Origin: Paenibacillus sp. 37
GTDB lineage: Bacteria; Bacillota; Bacilli; Paenibacillales; Paenibacillaceae
Length of the DNA: 64,000 nucleotides
Reading direction: 5' to 3'
Assembly: GCF_008386395.1 (NCBI RefSeq)
Contig: NZ_CP043761.1
Location: 2,728,001-2,792,000, forward strand
Shown: piece after piece, positions 10,895 to 18,755 of the stretch
Position numbering within the stretch: the first letter of the stretch is position 1
How the letters are laid out: every line of letters begins with the position of its first letter
Made by a program: the position numbers and the translations under genes
Notes under the pieces: model-generated
Told to the model about the DNA's origin: nothing
Databases searched by the model: none
The model's input: the letters and a program-made list of their open reading frames with translations, nothing else

Positions 10895-10938
10895 AAACGG
10901 TTGGAGTCTCTCGTAAGAGAGATTTCAACCGTTTTTTT
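10895..10938 (+). terminator. Terminator after the beta-mannosidase gene
   Basis: A long stem of AAACGGTTGGAG-type 5' arm (10895-10912) with GAGAGATTTCAACCGTTT (10917-10934), loop GTAA, then a T-run. Its sequence closely resembles the terminator at 15850. Confidence 0.9.
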
Positions 10939-10963: not shown

Positions 10964-11003
10964 TCGTAATGGTTTCGTAATACTTCGCTTAGAGAATCGT
11001 AAG
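10964..11003 (+). promoter_or_regulatory. Tandem TCGTAA repeats upstream of the Met-rich gene operon
   Basis: Heptamers TCGTAAT (10964), TCGTAAT (10975) and TCGTAAG (10997) occur at 11- and 22-base steps, with a degenerate TCGCTTA at 10985. Same-face direct repeats are typical of OmpR/PhoB-type response regulators, and such a regulator is encoded 600 bp downstream in the same operon. This is the likely autoregulatory site. A -35/-10 pair cannot be placed with certainty. Confidence 0.5.
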
Positions 11004-11057: not shown

Positions 11058-11519
11058 ATGATGAAAACGAATAAGAGCAAAAAAGTGATGGTAGCAGCGG
11101 TATTGATAATGTCTATGGCCTTTTCTGGATTGGCAAGTGCTGCAGATATGAAAACAATTAAAAAAGATGGCATGGAGCTTGTTCAATTGAGACAGGCGGC
11201 GAAAATGTATGATTACAGCATTATGTGGGACAGCAAGGACAGATCTGTAACTTTGATGTATATGGGCAAAATGGACGACAAGATGATGAAAGACGACAAC
11301 ATGATGGAAGACGAAATGAAGATGAAAGATGACAAAATGATGGAAGAAACGATGATGCCTGCGGGAAAAACGATTAAATTGTGGATTGGATCGAAAAAAA
11401 TCATGGTAGACGGTATGCAAGTTAACTTGAAATCGATGCCTGTCATCCATGAAGGGAATTCGTATGCGGCTGAGTCTGTAATTAAACAGTACATGATGCC
11501 AGCCATGGGAATGAAGTAA
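11058..11519 (+). CDS. Secreted methionine-rich protein
   Basis: A 153-residue protein with a Sec signal peptide (about residues 1-28, ending GLASA). About 24 of the 125 mature residues are methionine. Most lie in a Met/Asp/Lys-rich middle section (MDDKMMKDDNMMEDEMKM) flanked by two parts that resemble the copper-amine-oxidase N-terminal (stalk) domain, for example KKIMVDGMQVNLKSMPVIHE. The start at 11058 has GGAGAG upstream. It heads an operon with a two-component system, CcdA, a TlpA-like thioredoxin and MsrAB. A sacrificial methionine pool for reactive chlorine or oxygen species, reduced again by MsrAB, is inferred. Cu(I) or Ag(I) binding through MM/MxxM motifs is the alternative. Confidence 0.85.
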   Translation: MMKTNKSKKVMVAAVLIMSMAFSGLASAADMKTIKKDGMELVQLRQAAKMYDYSIMWDSKDRSVTLMYMGKMDDKMMKDDNMMEDEMKMKDDKMMEETMMPAGKTIKLWIGSKKIMVDGMQVNLKSMPVIHEGNSYAAESVIKQYMMPAMGMK

Positions 11520-11596
11520 TTTAAGGGCTAAGCATCGCCATCACCATATGATATGATTGGCTCAAATGTATTTTCTGGAATATGGGGTGGGTTCGT

Positions 11597-12301
11597 TTGA
11601 ATGAATGTGTACTTGTTGCTGATGATGATACAAATATTACGGACGTTTGTCGCAGGTATCTGGAACGGGAAGGTTATCTTGTTGTGACGGCCAAGGACGG
11701 TTTGGAGGCTATTGAGCTGTGGCACAGCCAAACGCCAAACTTGATTGTGCTCGACCTGATGATGCCGCATAAGAATGGCTGGGAAGTTTGCAACGAGATT
11801 CGGCAAACTGAGGATGTGCCCATTGTAATGCTGACGGCCCGTGGTGAGGAACAGGACCGTCTGATGGGACTGACGATGGGGGCGGATGATTATCTGACCA
11901 AACCATTCAGTCCAAGAGAACTTGTCTTACGTGTGAAGGCAATCCTGCGGAGAATGCGAATTGCGCAGGCATCACCTGTTACAACATCTGAATATACGAT
12001 CAATTATGAAGGGCTTACCATTGATTTTACCAAGCGTGAAGTGCACATCAGCGGGCAGGCCATTGAATTGACCGTTACAGAGTTTGAGATGTTGTATTTG
12101 CTGGCAAGTCACCCGGGCCAGGTGTTCTCCCGTAACCAGATGTTAAGCAAGATTTGGGATTTTAGCTATGAGGGAGATACAACAACGGTGACTGTACATG
12201 TTCGGAGATTACGAGAGAAGATCGAACAGAATCCTTCTGATCCAAAATATATTAAAACAGTTTGGGGTATAGGCTACAAGTTTGCGGGTGGCAGTTCATG
12301 A
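11597..12301 (+). CDS. OmpR/PhoB family response regulator
   Basis: A 234-residue two-component response regulator. The receiver domain (about residues 1-118) has acidic residues in VLVADDD, the phosphoacceptor Asp in VLDLMMP, and the Lys in LTKPFSP. The C-terminal winged helix runs over about residues 135-232 (LTVTEFEMLYLLASHPGQVF ... YIKTVWGIGYKF). The TTG at 11597 is preferred because GGGGTGGG lies 5 bases upstream and it gives MNECVLVADDD; an in-frame ATG at 11582 is poorly served. The stop overlaps the kinase start (ATGA). It probably binds the TCGTAA repeats at 10964-11003 and controls the Msr operon. Confidence 0.93.
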   Translation: MNECVLVADDDTNITDVCRRYLEREGYLVVTAKDGLEAIELWHSQTPNLIVLDLMMPHKNGWEVCNEIRQTEDVPIVMLTARGEEQDRLMGLTMGADDYLTKPFSPRELVLRVKAILRRMRIAQASPVTTSEYTINYEGLTIDFTKREVHISGQAIELTVTEFEMLYLLASHPGQVFSRNQMLSKIWDFSYEGDTTTVTVHVRRLREKIEQNPSDPKYIKTVWGIGYKFAGGSS

Positions 12302-13338
12302 AACTTCGCACATACTTGGTGTTGTCCAGTCTCACAGGCATTGGCGTATTATTAATTTGTTTGTTCATCAGTTATTCCAAAATGCTGCTTACGATCGAAC
12401 AATTGTATTGGTTATCGGCTATAACGGCAGGGGTAGGCTTACTTTCATTTATTCTTCAATATTTGCTGACCAAGCCATTAGAGAAATCAATTGCGCGAAT
12501 TACACAGCAGACGATCCGAATTGCCGAAGGGGATTTCCATACGGAAGTCCCTCTCATCGGTACGCAGGAATTTAAGCTCCTGGCACAGCAATTTAATGAA
12601 ATGAGTTCCAAGCTGAAGGAAAGCTTTGATCATCTGCATCACTCAGAAACCGCGAGACGAGAGTTGATCGCCAATGTTTCCCATGATTTACGGACTCCCT
12701 TGGCATCCATTCAGTCATTCGTCGAAGCGTTGGAGGATGATGTCATTAAGGATAAAGAAACCTTTCAGCGTTACCTGAACACGATACGACTTGAGACGAA
12801 GCGTTTGGGAGGGCTTATTCAAGATTTGTTCGAATTATCCAGCCTGGAAGCGCAAGGGGAGGTATTTGTGCCTCAGCCTTGTCACGTCGATGAGTTGCTG
12901 CTCAGTACGTTGGAGAGTTTTTCGTTTCATCTCGCCGAGAAAACGCTGAACGTTGAAATCGATTTGCCCGATAAATTACCAGCCGCGGTCATGATGCCTG
13001 CACAAATGAAGCGGGTCCTTTCCAATTTGCTGCAAAATGCCATTCAATACTCTCCTATTGAAGGAAAAATTATTCTGGCTGCCGAAGAGAAGGGGCCGTT
13101 TATACGAATTTCAGTTACAGATGAAGGGGAAGGCATTGAAGCGGAGGAAACTTCGCGTATATTTGAACGTTTTTATCGAATTGACAAATCACGTAGTAAG
13201 AGCAATGGGGGGGCCGGGCTTGGCCTTGCTATCGCTCAATCGATTGTGGAACTCCATGGTGGCGAGATTGGGGTTCAGAGTACAAAAGGAGAAGGAAGCT
13301 GCTTCTGGTTCACGCTTCCGATCTACGTCAGTCGTTAA
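12298..13338 (+). CDS. Sensor histidine kinase, intramembrane-sensing type
   Basis: A 346-residue kinase with two transmembrane helices (about residues 5-24 and 37-57) joined by only about 12 residues, so there is almost no extracytoplasmic sensor domain. A HAMP domain follows (LTKPLEKSIARI). The H-box is VSHDLRTPLASIQSF, the N-box NLLQNAIQYS, and the G-boxes DEGEGI and GGAGLGLAI. The start is fixed by a 4-bp ATGA overlap with the response regulator. It phosphorylates that regulator. The stimulus is probably perceived in the membrane or through a partner such as the Met-rich protein or CcdA, which is inference. Confidence 0.93.
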   Translation: MKLRTYLVLSSLTGIGVLLICLFISYSKMLLTIEQLYWLSAITAGVGLLSFILQYLLTKPLEKSIARITQQTIRIAEGDFHTEVPLIGTQEFKLLAQQFNEMSSKLKESFDHLHHSETARRELIANVSHDLRTPLASIQSFVEALEDDVIKDKETFQRYLNTIRLETKRLGGLIQDLFELSSLEAQGEVFVPQPCHVDELLLSTLESFSFHLAEKTLNVEIDLPDKLPAAVMMPAQMKRVLSNLLQNAIQYSPIEGKIILAAEEKGPFIRISVTDEGEGIEAEETSRIFERFYRIDKSRSKSNGGAGLGLAIAQSIVELHGGEIGVQSTKGEGSCFWFTLPIYVSR

Positions 13339-13381
13339 CCTTGGTTAATCAAACGTAGTATTTATTCAGGTGGTGAATGAC

Positions 13382-14098
13382 TTGACCAGTGATTTGGTTT
13401 TTCTTTTCGGCGTTTTTGGTGCAGGATTGTTATCGTTTTTTGCGCCATGTATTCTGCCGCTGATCCCGGTATATGTGTCTTATCTATCCGGAAGTATGGT
13501 CAACGGTACGAATCAGCAGCAGCCTGACACCAACTCGGTTCGGTTGAGGTCCACACTTGTTTTGCGGACATTTTTATTTGTTCTTGGGTTGTCCCTGGTA
13601 TTTGTTTTACTCGGTTTTGGTTCCGGCATCGTTGGTAATTTGATCTCAAGTCCTGTGTTTATTGCCATCTGCGGAGCCATCGTGGTGCTTTTTGGGATTT
13701 ATCAAACCGGGTTGATCCGACTATCCTGGCTGGAACGGGAGAGAAAGCTGTCAAACGATCAAGCCAAACGGGGAGGGTATGTCGGAGCGTTCCTGTTGGG
13801 TCTGACGTTTAGTTTTGGCTGGACGCCTTGTATCGGGCCTGTTCTGGCTGCCATTCTTGGTATCGCCGCAGGAGAAGGCTCTCCACTGTATGGCGGGTTT
13901 CTCATGTTCCTGTATACCCTTGGATTAGCGATTCCTTTCCTGATTCTGTCCGTTTTTTCGGAATATGTTATGAAGCGGATACGTGGTTTATACAGATATA
14001 TGGGTGTCATCAAAATAACTTCCGGCTGTATTCTTATTGTCATGGGACTACTGTTAATGACAGACCGACTAAACAACTTGGTGACCTGGTTTCAATAA
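13382..14098 (+). CDS. ccdA: CcdA-type transmembrane thiol-disulfide electron carrier
   Basis: A 238-residue polytopic membrane protein of the CcdA/DsbD-beta family. It passes electrons from cytoplasmic thioredoxin to thioredoxin-like proteins outside the membrane. The two conserved cysteines lie in FFAPCILPLIPVY (helix 1) and GWTPCIGPVL (helix 4), as in known CcdA proteins, and six hydrophobic helices are visible. The TTG at 13382 is chosen because AGGTGGTG lies about 6 bases before it; GTG codons at 13370/13373 are alternatives. It sits 18 bp before the TlpA-like lipoprotein, its likely electron acceptor. Confidence 0.92.
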   Translation: MTSDLVFLFGVFGAGLLSFFAPCILPLIPVYVSYLSGSMVNGTNQQQPDTNSVRLRSTLVLRTFLFVLGLSLVFVLLGFGSGIVGNLISSPVFIAICGAIVVLFGIYQTGLIRLSWLERERKLSNDQAKRGGYVGAFLLGLTFSFGWTPCIGPVLAAILGIAAGEGSPLYGGFLMFLYTLGLAIPFLILSVFSEYVMKRIRGLYRYMGVIKITSGCILIVMGLLLMTDRLNNLVTWFQ

Positions 14099-14116
14099 TC
14101 ATTGGAGGAATTTGGT

Positions 14117-14698
14117 ATGAAGACGGCACGGAAATGGATGTTATCTGTAATCGTATTTGCTGGAGTCCTGTTGATCTTGAGCGCATGTGGATCACAGCAA
14201 ACTGAATCAAAACAAACGGGGTCATCATCAACCCTGGCATCAACATCCGATATGAGTTCGTCAATCATGATGAACAAGGGAGAGACGGCTCCTGAATTTT
14301 CATTGCTTGATCTGAAAGGAAACACGGTTGGACTTTCTGATGTTCAAGGCAAGAAAGTGTATGTGAAATACTGGGCTTCCTGGTGCTCCATCTGCCTTGC
14401 GGGTTTGGAAGACCTGAATAATCTGGCTGGTCAAAACAATGATTTTCAAGTCATTACGATTGTGACGCCAGACTACAAAGGAGAGAAATCCTCCCAAGCG
14501 TTTACCGAATGGTTTGACCAACAGCCATATGATAACATAACTGTTCTTTTGGATGAGAAAGGTGTATGGGCCAAGAAATTTGGCGTAAGAGCATATCCTA
14601 GTTCCTTTTATATTGGCTCTGATGGTATTTTAGCGAAATCGCAGCCAGGGCATGCATCTAATGAACAGATCATGGAATCATTACAAGAGATTTTGTGA
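14117..14698 (+). CDS. TlpA/ResA-like thioredoxin lipoprotein
   Basis: A 193-residue lipoprotein with signal peptide and lipobox LSAC at about residues 21-24, a Ser/Thr-rich linker, and a redoxin domain from about residue 55 ([20 protein letters not shown]). The active site is WCSIC with Cys90 and Cys93, and the cis-proline is in RAYPSSFY. It is membrane-anchored on the outside of the cell. It probably takes electrons from CcdA and reduces the adjacent MsrAB lipoprotein, as the TlpA-like N-domain does in Neisseria PilB. GGAGG lies 8 bases before the ATG at 14117; the next gene starts 16 bp downstream. Confidence 0.92.
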
Positions 14699-14714
14699 GA
14701 AGGGAGGAAGTGTC

Positions 14715-15803
14715 ATGAAAAGGACGCTGCTCGGCTTGTTCCTCCTTGTTATAGCGATCGTTGTGTCTGCTTGTGGAAACAGGGCTGAGAGCCATTCATC
14801 TTCATCTTCGATATCCACTCAACCTGTCAAGGCATCGAGTGTCTCCGAGGAAAACCTGAGTAACCTGTACTTGGCAGGAGGCTGTTTCTGGGGTGTGGAG
14901 GCATATATGGCTCGTATTCCAGGGGTTCAGGATGTGACTTCCGGTTATGCCAACGGTGAAGGAGAGAATCCAACCTATGAGGATGTTATTCGCGGAGACC
15001 AGGGGTTTGCGGAGACTGTTCATGTAAAATATGATCCGCAGCAAGTATCTTTGCAGAAATTGCTGGAATCTTATTTTCGAGTAATTGATCCTACCAGCTT
15101 GAATAAGCAGGGCAATGATCGTGGCGTTCAGTATCGGACTGGAATATATTATACGTTGCCTGAAGATGCCAAAATCATCGAGCAAGCTGTAGAGGCAGAG
15201 CAAGAAAAATATGACCAACCCATTGTAACGGAAGTAATGCCTCTGCAGAGTTATTATTTGGCGGAGGAGTACCATCAGGATTATTTGGAAAAAAATCCGA
15301 ACGGATATTGTCACATTGATATGACTGTCCTGGATGACCTGGAGATTGGGATTGATCCCGCTCAATATCCACGTCCAACAGATGAACAATTAAAGGAACG
15401 ATTAACAGACGAACAGTATGCAGTTGCGGTAAACAATGATACGGAGCATGCGTTCAGTAACGAATACTGGGATAATGAGGAGCCCGGTCTGTATGTTGAT
15501 ATTGCAACGGGAGAGCCATTGTTCACCAGCCGGGATAAGTACGATTCTGGTTGTGGGTGGCCGAGTTTTACAAAACCGATTGTACCAGAGGTTGTTACCT
15601 ATACAACGGATACGAGCTTTAGTATGGAGCGCACGGAGGTACGAAGCCGGGCAGGAGATATCCACCTTGGGCATGTGTTCGATGATGGTCCCGAAGATCG
15701 TGGCGGCAAACGTTACTGTATTAATAGTTCATCGATCCGGTTTATTCCCTTAGACAAGATGGAGGAAGAACGTTATGGGTATTTACTGTCTTTTGTCGAG
15801 TAG
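14715..15803 (+). CDS. msrAB: MsrA-MsrB fusion lipoprotein (methionine sulfoxide reductase)
   Basis: A 362-residue bifunctional enzyme that reduces both S- and R-methionine sulfoxide in proteins. The signal peptide has lipobox VSAC (about residues 17-20), so it is tethered outside the membrane. The MsrA domain (about residues 48-205) has catalytic Cys57 in GGCFWG. The MsrB domain (about residues 222-355) has catalytic Cys335 in RYCINS and an earlier Cys in SGCGWPSF. The CxxC zinc sites of some MsrB proteins are absent, as in B. subtilis MsrB. GGGAGGAAG precedes the ATG. It is the last gene of the operon; electrons probably come from the CcdA and TlpA-like proteins. Confidence 0.95.
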
Positions 15804-15849
15804 AGAAGGGTAGCTGACTTTATCAAAATATAATAACGCCATAATTTAG

Positions 15850-15892
15850 AACGGTTGAGATCTCTCTATGAGGGATTTCGACCGTTTTTTAT
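15850..15892 (+). terminator. Terminator closing the Msr operon
   Basis: AACGGTTGAGATCTCTC (15850-15866) pairs imperfectly with AGGGATTTCGACCGTT (15871-15886), loop TATG, then a T-run. It is about 80% identical to the terminator at 10895, so the operon is flanked by sister hairpins. Confidence 0.88.
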
Positions 15893-15972: not shown

Positions 15973-16038
15973 GGGTAGGCTTCTGGTCACAATGCCAAGG
16001 TATTGTGTGTGTTTGATCGCTTAGGAGAGGGAGTTTAT

Positions 16039-17949
16039 ATGGGAATTCAGAATGACATCAAGCTGTGGGATCAGGTACAGGTTCGCGTGCTTGATGTGCG
16101 TCTTATATCACTCGCAACACACGAGTTCATACGCAATTATGTGTTACCAACCAGCGCATTTGTGTATGTTCAAGGCAGAGGCCAGGTCTGGCTGGATGAA
16201 GAGGTATGGACTACAAACCAGTTCTTGCTGCTGCATGGGGGAAAAGGAAGACGTCTGACACTTGAAGCGACAGGGGCTTTGGAGGTACATCTGATTTTGT
16301 ACAAATCAACCTTGCCCTCCAACGTGCTTGTGGAGTACCGAATGATGTTGAACCAGCGTAATCCGTTTGAAGAGTCCTGGGCGACAGTGCCGGATCATAC
16401 ACTTGAGCTACGTGAGCTTGTGCGGAATATACATGAATGCTGGTCAGGGCAGGAGCGAGTGAGCAAAATTCAGGTCAAAGTGTATTTCTTTCAACTGGTA
16501 CAGCTTGTCTTGTTACAGCGGAGTCGCATGTTTAACGAAGTTCAACAGCCTTCGCTTACCGATCAGGTTTTGCGATATATCAAAGCTCATTACCGGGAAT
16601 CGATCTCACTTGATTTGCTTGCCCAGTCCTTGAGTTACAGTCCGCAATATTTATCACGCAAATTCAAGGAACAGACGGGATGTACACCGACAGAATATGT
16701 GATTCGGTTACGAATGGCTGAGGCAAGGAGTCTGCTTGCGTCCACAGAAGCTTCATTACAGGAGATTGCTGCGTATGTGGGTTATATGGACCCGTTTTAT
16801 TTCAATCGTATATTCAAAAAAGAGACCGGTATCACACCGGGACAATATCGGTTGAAGCACCAGGAAAACTCGAAATCAGTTTCAGAAAGTACATTAAATG
16901 CAACAAATGAATCCATTGTAACAGGAGGGGATGAACGTTATCCTTTAATTGATGATGATAATCATTATCAATATAAGGGAGATGAGGAAATCAACATGTT
17001 TAACCATTTTAAATCAGCGATCATGTCGCTTGCACTTGTACTCACATTGAGTGCTTGTGGAACAGCCCAGCAGGGGGCAGAAACATCCGAAGTTGCGGCT
17101 GAACCCGAACAACCGGCAGTAGTGGAAACCCAAATGGTAAATACGACCTTTGGCGAGGTAGAGATTCCTGCACATCCGGAGCGTGTTGCTGCTATTGATT
17201 ATCTGGGAACGGTGCTTGCTCTTGGTGTCAAACCGATTGGTGGAGGACAATTTCTGATGAACAGCCCTTATCTGGAAGGCCACTTGGATGGTCTTGAGAC
17301 CATAGGGGACTCCGTTGAACAATTGATGGAGCTGGAACCTGATCTTATTATTACATTGAATCCGGACAAGGCGGCTTATGAGAAATATAGCAAGATTGCT
17401 CCGACCGTTTCGATCGCATCCATCACATTCCCGACACTTAAGGATGAAGTGAACTATTTCGGTAAAGTCCTTGGCAAAGGAGCGGAAGCAGAGAAGTGGC
17501 TGGCTGATTTTGATGAGGAGATTGCTAAAATTAAGCAGGAAGTGCAGAGCGTTGTTCCAGCTGATACTACATTCTCCGTTATGCAGGAATATGATCGCCA
17601 AGTCTTCATTTTTGGCAATCAGTCGGGCCGGGGAGGACGTAACATCTACGAATTGCTTGGATTGCAAGCACCAAAGAACATTCCATCCGAGTTGATGCAG
17701 GGCGCTTATCATGAATTCTCCATAGAACTGCTCTCCAAATATGCCGGAGATTACATTGTGCTGACCAGCAAGTCTCAGTTGAAAGACCTTCAGGCAGATC
17801 CGATCTGGGGTTCATTACCTGCTATCAAAAATGGAAAAGTATACATATGGACGGAAGAACAATCCTGGTTCCGTGACCCTATCGCCTTGTTGAAACAGAC
17901 ACAGGATCTGGCTGAATGGATTATTGAACTTAATACACCGTCTAAGTAA
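16039..17949 (+). CDS. AraC regulator fused in frame to a siderophore-binding lipoprotein
   Basis: A continuous 636-residue reading frame. Residues 1-~170 are an AraC-type effector domain, and about 175-280 hold two AraC helix-turn-helices (SLDLLAQSLSYSPQYLSRKF; SLQEIAAYVGYMDPFYFNRI). A linker of about 40 residues follows. Residue 320 is a Met that begins a complete lipoprotein signal peptide with lipobox LSAC. The rest is a TroA/FeuA-like iron-siderophore binding domain. GGAGAGGGAG precedes the ATG at 16039. In known Btr-type regulators the binding domain follows AraC directly, without a signal peptide. Here a Fur box and ribosome binding site lie inside the frame, so the product may be a fusion, a separate lipoprotein, or both. 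Confidence 0.8.
   Translation: MGIQNDIKLWDQVQVRVLDVRLISLATHEFIRNYVLPTSAFVYVQGRGQVWLDEEVWTTNQFLLLHGGKGRRLTLEATGALEVHLILYKSTLPSNVLVEYRMMLNQRNPFEESWATVPDHTLELRELVRNIHECWSGQERVSKIQVKVYFFQLVQLVLLQRSRMFNEVQQPSLTDQVLRYIKAHYRESISLDLLAQSLSYSPQYLSRKFKEQTGCTPTEYVIRLRMAEARSLLASTEASLQEIAAYVGYMDPFYFNRIFKKETGITPGQYRLKHQENSKSVSESTLNATNESIVTGGDERYPLIDDDNHYQYKGDEEINMFNHFKSAIMSLALVLTLSACGTAQQGAETSEVAAEPEQPAVVETQMVNTTFGEVEIPAHPERVAAIDYLGTVLALGVKPIGGGQFLMNSPYLEGHLDGLETIGDSVEQLMELEPDLIITLNPDKAAYEKYSKIAPTVSIASITFPTLKDEVNYFGKVLGKGAEAEKWLADFDEEIAKIKQEVQSVVPADTTFSVMQEYDRQVFIFGNQSGRGGRNIYELLGLQAPKNIPSELMQGAYHEFSIELLSKYAGDYIVLTSKSQLKDLQADPIWGSLPAIKNGKVYIWTEEQSWFRDPIALLKQTQDLAEWIIELNTPSK
16956..16970 (+). promoter_or_regulatory. 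Perfect Fur box inside the AraC-SBP reading frame
   Basis: An exact 7-1-7 core, TGATAAT-C-ATTATCA, lies 26 bases before the internal lipoprotein start at 16996. Its position implies an iron-regulated internal promoter for the binding protein alone. Confidence 0.8.
16996..17949 (+). CDS. Iron-siderophore ABC transporter substrate-binding lipoprotein (internal start)
   Basis: An in-frame alternative product of 317 residues nested in the AraC fusion. The ATG at 16996 has GAGGAA 6 bases upstream and a perfect Fur box just before that. The signal peptide MFNHFKSAIMSLALVLTLSAC has its lipid-anchored Cys at residue 21 (given here only as positions 1-21 of the product). The binding domain has typical family features: FGEVEIPAHPERV, LELEPDLIITL-like MELEPDLII, and LPAIKNGKVYIW near the C-terminus. 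It would deliver ferric siderophore to a permease not encoded nearby. That it is made separately is inferred. Confidence 0.6.
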   Translation: MFNHFKSAIMSLALVLTLSACGTAQQGAETSEVAAEPEQPAVVETQMVNTTFGEVEIPAHPERVAAIDYLGTVLALGVKPIGGGQFLMNSPYLEGHLDGLETIGDSVEQLMELEPDLIITLNPDKAAYEKYSKIAPTVSIASITFPTLKDEVNYFGKVLGKGAEAEKWLADFDEEIAKIKQEVQSVVPADTTFSVMQEYDRQVFIFGNQSGRGGRNIYELLGLQAPKNIPSELMQGAYHEFSIELLSKYAGDYIVLTSKSQLKDLQADPIWGSLPAIKNGKVYIWTEEQSWFRDPIALLKQTQDLAEWIIELNTPSK

Positions 17950-18083: not shown

Positions 18084-18755
18084 TTATTCGCTCTTTTGTT
18101 CGTTTTGAATTTCTTGCAGATCCTCCAGCTGGAGTGTAAGGTCATTCTCGGGGTTTGCACTCACAATGACTTCTGACTGTGATTGTTGCTGACCTGGCTG
18201 ATTCGACTTGGCGGCAGGTTTGATCACGTAGAGACTTTGAACGGAGTTGAGCAGGCTGGCAGGGGTGTCTTCATACGTTTCCAGGAAGAGTACATAGTCT
18301 TTGGTAGGAATCAGCTTGAGGTTGTCATCATTAAAAATCTCGGTGTTGCCAAGTTGTCCGCCAAGTTGCTTCACTTCAAGTTTTTCCCCGGCAGTGTAAC
18401 CGCCCTTATAGGATTCAGCGACCTGAATCGTGTGGATCGTATAGATTTTGTCAAAAGAAGATGGATCTCCGCCCGGATCGGACGCGGGGTTTAACTCGTT
18501 TTCATTGGCAGCACCGGTAACTTGTACGATATCGTTTAAAGCTTCCACACGAGTCTCAACAACACTGCCTTTCACAATGGCATTTGCTCTCTCGGACAGG
18601 TCGCCAATGCTGGCATAACTCGGGTAATCTTCAGAAGCAATAATGGTCATGGGTGCATCGGATGGGGACGCGGTAGGTGTAACAGAAGAACATCCAACAG
18701 CAGATAAAATGAAAATGGAAGAGAGAAGCAGCGTTAATACTCGATTTTTGTTCAT
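18084..18755 (-). CDS. Hypothetical lipoprotein
   Basis: A 223-residue lipoprotein: signal peptide with hydrophobic core LLLSSIFILSAVG, lipobox AVGC at about residues 19-22, a Ser/Thr/Pro-rich linker, then a soluble domain with the pattern ANAIVKGSVVETRVEAL and IYTIHTIQVAESYKG. The C-terminus is Gln/Ser-rich and acidic. The IVKGSVV/YTIHTIQV strands resemble small beta-barrel domains in other Firmicute lipoproteins, but I cannot name the family. AAGGAGG precedes the start. It follows the metzincin gene by 44 bp on the same strand, so the two are probably co-expressed. Confidence 0.8.
   Translation of the reverse strand: MNKNRVLTLLLSSIFILSAVGCSSVTPTASPSDAPMTIIASEDYPSYASIGDLSERANAIVKGSVVETRVEALNDIVQVTGAANENELNPASDPGGDPSSFDKIYTIHTIQVAESYKGGYTAGEKLEVKQLGGQLGNTEIFNDDNLKLIPTKDYVLFLETYEDTPASLLNSVQSLYVIKPAAKSNQPGQQQSQSEVIVSANPENDLTLQLEDLQEIQNEQKSE

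Follow-up and report, generated by a model that had tools for sequence, protein, structure and literature searches.

We report that six co-directional genes in a stretch of DNA from Paenibacillus sp. 37 (contig NZ_CP043761.1; the whole 64,000 nucleotides analysed are called the window here) probably form, judging by what they encode, an extracytoplasmic unit for defence against methionine oxidation, that is, a regenerable sink for oxidants with a dedicated sensor, analogous to MrpX and BcrX. The operon occupies 11058..15803 of the plus strand in the order metR, response regulator, sensor kinase, ccdA, Etrx/TlpA-like lipoprotein and msrAB, an order kept across genera; five of the six genes are the known streptococcal extracytoplasmic operon for MsrAB, a methionine sulfoxide reductase (Msr), and the secreted methionine-rich first gene appears to be what is new. 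The strongest argument is that two unrelated candidate sulfoxide reductases lie beside the same family of two-component systems (TCS) and a Met-rich protein, which argues for a role of that protein connected with methionine sulfoxide. The link with sulfoxide repair, first proposed in a sequence-only reading of this DNA, gains from this comparison.

The features of the locus are these:
10964..11003, plus strand: direct-repeat element, CGTAAT every 11 base pairs (bp) and then TTAGAGAATCGTAAG; putative binding site of the response regulator in the operon promoter
11058..11519, plus strand: metR, secreted Met-rich protein, a PF07833 stalk domain broken by a Met/Asp/Lys repeat
11274..11347, plus strand: tandem repeat array (18/36 bp) coding for the Met-rich insert, from Tandem Repeats Finder (TRF)
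11582..12301, plus strand: response regulator of the OmpR/PhoB type (PF00072 and PF00486)
12298..13338, plus strand: sensor kinase whose extracytoplasmic loop is very short (HAMP, HisKA, HATPase_c)
13370..14098, plus strand: CcdA, transmembrane thiol electron carrier (PF02683, DsbD_TM; cysteines in FAPC and WTPC)
14117..14698, plus strand: thioredoxin-fold lipoprotein (Tlp), Etrx1/TlpA-like (Redoxin/AhpC-TSA; active site WCSIC; best PDB match 4hqs)
14715..15803, plus strand: MsrA-MsrB fusion lipoprotein (PMSR and SelR; PDB MsrAB matches 7e43, 5fa9 and 3e0m)
15848..15888, plus strand: terminator-like hairpin 3' of msrAB, 19 pairs and then a T run

All six genes of the kinds first read from the letters were recovered from the open reading frames (ORFs), Pfam and NCBIfam, and the finer details given with them (a 4-bp overlap, two lipoboxes, the CcdA cysteines and both Msr catalytic cysteines) are seen in the sequence. 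The overlap joins response regulator and kinase, the remaining intergenic gaps being of some 16-77 bp depending on the start codons; the regulator may begin at 11582 (ATG) or 11597 (TTG), and its domain scan began at 11600, a few codons within its ORF. The lipoboxes read LSAC in Tlp and VSAC in MsrAB, and the catalytic motifs are GGCFWG in MsrA and RYCINS and SGCGWPSF in MsrB; the MsrAB structure chains in the PDB alignments carry serine at the catalytic positions. The best NCBIfam match of Tlp is the thioredoxin part of PRK14018, a MsrA/MsrB model. The upstream neighbour gene ends in a hairpin similar to that behind msrAB, at about 10897-10938, read directly and absent from the computed hairpin list; terminator-like hairpins occupy 7 sites in the region against 3.5 expected from shuffled sequence. 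A scan for sigma-70-type promoters gave 11 matches against 10.5 in shuffles, that is, no excess, and therefore no transcription start site is claimed.

MetR has 153 amino acids, of which 29 are Met (19.0%, as had been estimated from the letters), and its 121 residues beyond residue 32 hold 23 Met, one His and no Cys; the signal peptide was read by eye in the alignment. The protein matches PF07833 with 40.3 bits in the Pfam scan, and the alignment of 21 sequences reveals a single PF07833 domain whose conserved halves flank a Met/Asp/Lys insert of variable length. In the AlphaFold2 model, residues 33-68 and 105-146 form strands and short helices around an insert (72-99) of low confidence, the mean predicted local distance difference test (pLDDT) score being only 57.5. 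In eight genomes with MsrAB 94-98% identical, the metR ORFs range from 144 to 180 amino acids with the length of the insert. MetR has no match in NCBIfam, and thus none to TIGR02953 of the MXKDX family. The possibility of a copper amine oxidase was discarded, as only the N-terminal PF07833 domain rises above cut-off, without the catalytic amine oxidase domain. Database homologues number 161 at E <= 1e-5, and among the matches listed (120 of the 161) those with names are mostly 'hypothetical', 'stalk domain-containing' or 'copper amine oxidase N-terminal'.

The company that this protein keeps was followed through 394 genomes of the family Paenibacillaceae (loci and genomes carry our labels L and G). 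With a cut-off of E <= 1e-90, the kinase is found in 86 of them, in 37 cases close (tier 1) and in 49 distant (tier 2), and all 86 loci, the window included, were examined. An adjacent, co-directional, secreted Met-rich ORF, defined by a length of 60 amino acids or more, a Met content of 10% or more beyond residue 25 and an N-terminus that is hydrophobic, accompanies the TCS at 78 of the 86 (36/37 in tier 1 and 42/49 in tier 2), placed either before the regulator or after the kinase; over 88 loci, two remote kinases having been added, the only further ORFs that pass the same filter are four, and each of these is on the opposite strand. A profile search with MetR gives matches in 43 of the 394 genomes, 36 of these matches lying at a tier-1 TCS locus and seven being weaker, of which four adjoin a more distant TCS. 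As a side observation, three loci (L359, L360 and L361, in G319, G111 and G303) carry Met-rich stalk-type proteins, with 12-16% Met, without such a TCS alongside.

The reductase beside this TCS is of two kinds: MsrAB at 33 of the 86 loci (32 in tier 1, one in tier 2), and at 41, all of tier 2, a molybdo-type protein encoded downstream of the related TCS (L363, L365 and L367-L405), which was detected by phmmer with one such protein as query and is accompanied by a Met-rich gene in 35 cases. The four molybdo proteins whose domains were scanned (410-446 amino acids) all contain PF00174, with 130-137 bits; three of them have a cytochrome b561 match below the model cut-off, and one also a twin-arginine translocation (TAT) signal match. 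We label this protein MsrP-like, not MsrP. Together with the reductase, the scaffold of the Met-rich protein also changes: beside MsrAB, 31 of 31 have no lipobox (stalk type), beside the molybdo protein 34 of 35 are lipoproteins, and where there is no reductase 12 of 12 again have no lipobox, these labels being taken from the lipobox pattern, with PF07833 itself scanned only in MetR and L357. After residue 30 the 78 Met-rich proteins contain on average 19.6% Met, 0.4% His and 0.2% Cys, so that, on the evidence of their sequences, it is composition that they have in common, not fold.

Seen from the side of the reductase, MsrAB is present at E <= 1e-100 in 51 of the 394 genomes, and all 51 loci were examined, again with the window. 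Thirty-two have the orthologous TCS (kinase above 570 bits), and MetR is found at 31 of these, L165 being the exception; of the remaining 19, L184 has a more distant TCS, L125 and L192 a remote one and 16 no such TCS. In G107 and G316 the Met-rich protein with its TCS and the MsrAB locus are on different contigs. The Met-rich gene, as far as synteny tells, tracks the TCS rather than msrAB, and an obligate partnership of MetR with MsrAB was rejected because 12 TCS loci show no reductase within the region fetched and 19 MsrAB loci have no MetR. Among single loci, it may be recorded that L193 has one opposite-strand Met-rich ORF inside msrAB, that msrAB is split over three ORFs in G054 (L126) and that the regulator is split over two in G036 (L120). 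What comparison of loci shows, within the reach of such data, is thus the structure of the operon, the linkage of Met-rich gene and TCS, and the exchange both of the type of reductase and of the Met-rich scaffold.

The direct-repeat element was found by aligning the regions upstream of metR in the window and 35 other loci. In the 75 genomes of the genus it occurs in 16, with one copy each, and these are exactly the 16 that have metR, the other 59 having none, while the reversed pattern used as control gave 0; in the genome of Paenibacillus sp. 37 a shorter form of the repeat occurs once, with up to 3 mismatches allowed. Comparison thus marks the promoter element as specific to the operon among the genus genomes searched, which bears out the idea that the TCS is dedicated to it, since the genome has one such element, and it is conceivably the site that the regulator binds. 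A reduced pattern, [CT]GTAA twice at 11 bp, was searched upstream of the TCS loci and is present at 34 of the 37 in tier 1 (L165 included) and at 25 of the 41 molybdo loci, against a background of 12 matches in 1,806,898 nucleotides, or 0.0026 per 390 nucleotides; at the one tier-2 MsrAB locus it was not found (0/1).

Two membrane segments are likely in the kinase, and between them lies, as read from the alignment, a loop of about ten residues, in which Met29 is kept by 80 of 81 aligned relatives, five of the 86 having been dropped by a catalytic-motif filter. The sole aligned kinase that departs from this has T and is most likely that of L120, whose N-terminus differs; four streptococcal kinases, aligned likewise, have a Met at the corresponding place. 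In Escherichia coli, two methionines in the loop of HprS sense hypochlorous acid (HOCl), according to a review (PMC10151825), and by analogy Met29 is a candidate oxidant sensor, although its conservation could also be structural. In a tree of the kinases (FastTree, 84 tips, the five dropped sequences not included) the MsrAB-type and molybdo-type loci form separate clades, with support of 0.94 and 0.92, and the topology points to two or more losses of msrAB, the inner nodes nearby having low support (0.17-0.67).

A different Met-rich lipoprotein occurs in some members of Streptococcus, a genus in which MsrAB is found at E <= 1e-150 in 135 of 197 genomes. At 42 of the 90 loci read, a Met-rich lipoprotein, in all 42 with a lipobox, is encoded between ccdA and tlp, with a composition of about 19% Met, 27% Asp, 23% Lys and 21% Ser, and 0.0% His and 0.1% Cys (n = 42). 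The sample was not random, consisting of the 30 best-scoring loci, all of which have the lipoprotein, and 60 chosen among the remaining listed ones (about every second, and then seven extra divergent), of which 12 have it; two of these 60 share one genome, and two lack ccdA and tlp. The one streptococcal protein scanned had no Pfam match at E 0.01, and TIGR02953 (cut-off 41) was reached neither by a streptococcal lipoprotein (22.1) nor by two from Paenibacillaceae (36.0 and 16.2). Loci with this arrangement include L056, L061, L063, L068, L070 and L071, and further L074, L076, L078-L080 and L083.

In the scheme that we infer from these data, HOCl, chloramines, peroxide or the like would oxidise cell-surface methionines; the kinase, through its short loop and perhaps through Met29, would sense that oxidation, and the regulator would then activate the promoter ahead of metR. 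MetR would be exported in quantity, its exposed Met/Asp/Lys repeat absorbing oxidant in the form of methionine sulfoxide, and MsrAB would reduce both MetR and other surface proteins, with electrons that, following the route known from other species, would pass from cytosolic thioredoxin to CcdA, from this to the thioredoxin-fold lipoprotein and finally to MsrAB. If this is true, regenerable methionine polymers would be a recurring antioxidant strategy of the cell envelope, able to work with two unrelated reductases.

Several observations weigh against a regenerable sink of this kind. Firstly, at 12 of the 86 TCS loci (five in tier 1 and seven in tier 2) the Met-rich gene and the TCS are present and the region fetched around them contains no reductase; recycling by MsrAB is therefore not the sole possible reason for MetR. 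The five close loci (L154-L158, in G003, G029, G048, G053 and G069) contain metR, regulator and kinase and neither tlp nor msrAB, and in L154 CcdA is matched only weakly, by a short ORF; each of these genomes has one MsrAB-type gene at E <= 1e-60, in a search directed at the fused type and not at separate MsrA and MsrB genes, and such genes, from their starts, look cytosolic in Paenibacillus sp. 37 itself (L002) and in G003 (L026), while that of G029 (L031) has a longer upstream ORF. At these five loci MetR may function without regeneration, may depend on another enzyme, or may have a signalling role. Secondly, at the 19 MsrAB loci of the family with no orthologous TCS neither a MetR homologue nor an adjacent co-directional Met-rich secreted ORF was found (0/19), so that the expectation of a Met-rich gene at most homologous loci holds where the orthologous TCS is present and fails elsewhere in the family. 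In Streptococcus, 48 of the 90 loci have no Met-rich lipoprotein by the filter, L285 among them having a similar ORF. Thirdly, the best NCBIfam match of three molybdo proteins is MsrP with 77-79 bits, far from its cut-off of 207 and followed by SorA and SoxC, and the nearest PDB sequence of one of them is a sulfite:cytochrome c oxidoreductase, 1xdq, which we take to be E. coli YedY (MsrP), coming lower. Finally, the reduced repeat pattern was not found upstream of 16 of the 41 molybdo loci, nor at any of the seven tier-2 loci without reductase (0/7).

Part of this evidence would suit a different role, in which MetR serves the kinase mainly as a partner in sensing, its oxidation state at the membrane setting the activity of the kinase and the reductases resetting the signal. 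The Met-rich gene follows the TCS more closely than it follows any one reductase, as the 78 of 86 loci and the 12 loci devoid of reductase indicate, the kinase has a loop of some ten residues with a nearly invariant Met29, and the loop methionines of HprS provide a precedent. A partner that docks on the kinase should, however, be constrained, and the Met-rich proteins vary in fold, repeat length and position while the kinase remains homologous; moreover, the filter finds no Met-rich gene at 8 of the 86 TCS loci. We consider this role rather unlikely: the regenerable sink is the reading best supported, and the sensor partner comes behind it.

Two further explanations are quite improbable in our estimation, and to the same degree. 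MetR could bind copper or silver through its methionines, with the TCS as a metal sensor and MsrAB repairing metal-driven oxidation of Met, in the manner of MsrPQ and CusF in E. coli; known proteins do hold Cu(I) through Met residues, and in E. coli copper acts through CusSR to induce MsrPQ (PMC9302797). Nevertheless, the compositions given above leave almost no His or Cys either in the 78 proteins of the family or in the 42 of Streptococcus, the kinase and the regulator stay far below the cut-offs of the heavy-metal models TIGR01386 and TIGR01387 (157.1 against 292.55, and 187.1 against 279.2, respectively), and no copper-transport domain appeared in the three flanking ORFs scanned. Chelation of copper or silver as the main role was accordingly ranked low, given the scarcity of His and Cys and the low scores of the TCS. 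That MetR is an ordinary stalk-domain surface protein with a neutrally expanded repeat and a merely historical linkage to the TCS would agree with the 40 PF07833 matches in this genome and with an insert that is a length-variable tandem repeat, but the 30 other PF07833 frames read (30 of the 40 matches, five being cut by the locus end) do not exceed 3.8% Met in any case, against 19% in MetR, and dissimilar lipoproteins, at related TCS loci and in streptococci, have the same Met/Asp/Lys composition.

Taking the sink and the signal together, one may conjecture, as a possibility rather than a probability, that the core unit is a circuit of two parts, namely a short-loop, Met-sensing kinase with its regulator and a low-complexity polymer of methionine, into which the reductase is plugged as MsrAB, as the MsrP-like molybdo protein, or not at all. 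The polymer would then be both buffer and antenna, the kinase reading the oxidised share of the extracellular methionine pool, and similar Met/Asp/Lys polymers would have arisen on several scaffolds: the stalk domain, the lipoprotein of Paenibacillaceae, that of streptococci and the peptides of proteobacteria.

In Pasteurellaceae, where MsrAB is present in 68 of 140 genomes, nine regions with wide flanks include two (L406 and L410) with a Met-rich secreted ORF near msrAB, and a genome scan adds four cases of the Pasteurellaceae type (L043, L053, L055 and L059); as L406 is the same DNA as L059, and L410 and L043 are close relatives, about four cases are distinct. L043 comes from a record that bears the label Pseudomonas stutzeri. 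The ORFs are within some 3.2 kb of msrAB-ccdA-tlp, all of them on the opposite strand, and 30 other Pasteurellaceae loci (L287-L316) have flanks of only 1.5 kb, too short to exclude such ORFs. A general association in Pasteurellaceae was therefore not retained, with about four cases and on the opposite strand only, and is a weak lead.

Downstream of the operon, the window has at 16003-17949 a single open frame in which an AraC-type regulator (HTH_18) and a siderophore-binding-like domain (Peripla_BP_2) are fused and whose middle contains a stretch resembling a signal peptide and lipobox, LTLSACG; at 18084-18755, on the minus strand, there is a lipoprotein-like ORF of 223 amino acids with no Pfam match at E 0.1, ORFs resembling which are present in the same neighbourhood at L154-L158.

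With regard to known systems, we know of no bacterium outside Proteobacteria in which a secreted Met-rich protein, a dedicated sensor and a sulfoxide reductase go together. Our literature search, which reached subscription papers for the most part not at all, returned no recognised account of a Met-rich protein with TCS-ccdA-trx-msrAB, or of one in Paenibacillaceae. In Azospira, MrpX-YedYZ reportedly combines a Met-rich peptide with an Msr. In Brucella, the Met-rich peptide and Msr genes of BcrXQP are induced by HOCl and contribute to resistance to it (PMC8315932), and in uropathogenic E. coli the Met-rich peptide C3568 stands beside C3566/C3567, under OrhKR, in a system of the MsrPQ type (PMC8550376). 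For these three systems a sacrificial sink has been proposed, and the operon of the window resembles them in having a Met-rich secreted protein with charged spacers, an Msr and a stress regulator in one locus. They differ from it in their MsrPQ-type reductase and their small MXKDX peptides; in the window the MsrP/MsrQ pairing was not found, its place being taken by MsrAB, and the thiol-based MsrAB with CcdA, the stalk-domain scaffold and the Gram-positive setting are its own.

PilB of Neisseria is a fusion of Trx, MsrA and MsrB. The same three activities are found in the window, whose Tlp matches the N-terminal part of PRK14018 and whose MsrAB the C-terminal part, although here they form two separate lipoproteins and not one polypeptide; a PilB-like fusion does occur at ten loci of the family (L163, L168-L171, L174 and L176-L179), where the MsrAB ORF, of 517-616 amino acids, includes the Tlp part. 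In Fusobacterium nucleatum, ccdA, trx and msrAB lie together with the TCS ModRS and are induced by H2O2 (PMC9239216), but there the TCS is downstream of msrAB, and the published account, so far as available, describes no Met-rich gene. HprSR-MsrPQ of E. coli (PMC10151825, PMC9302797) is likewise a TCS that controls extracytoplasmic sulfoxide repair and has Met in the loop of the sensor; its reductase is different, its operon as described has no Met-rich sink, and the sensors are compared here by their descriptions. A related idea comes from Bacillus cereus, where MsrAB recycles Met residues of exoproteins, with no dedicated sink in the abstract (PMC5526929).

The closest relative is the five-gene operon of Streptococcus gordonii, where the TCS is joined by CcdA1, a thioredoxin-like lipoprotein and MsrAB and where it was measured that CcdA proteins reduce the lipoproteins and that these reduce MsrAB (PMC7034828); the same electron route is supported for the pneumococcal CcdA, Etrx1/2 and MsrAB2, PDB 4HQS being Etrx1 (PMC3914529). 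The window has the same co-directional order of TCS, ccdA, thioredoxin-fold lipoprotein and msrAB, and the WCSIC active site of its Tlp is common in the alignment with Etrx1, so that by analogy the route from CcdA through the lipoprotein to MsrAB is expected here too. The electron supply foreseen in the sequence-only reading thus finds a biochemically tested counterpart, while the belief that the combination was unfamiliar in Firmicutes has to be given up for TCS-ccdA-tlp-msrAB, already known in Streptococcus. What distinguishes the window is metR, which precedes the TCS; the published five-gene description has no such gene, and the account of the S. gordonii operon, as far as accessible, does not mention the Met-rich lipoprotein either (PMC7034828). 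That streptococcal lipoprotein nevertheless belongs to an operon type already studied experimentally, and with metR and its promoter the notion of a renewable buffer of surface methionine in Gram-positive bacteria becomes testable with defined genes, a defined promoter and a defined substrate.

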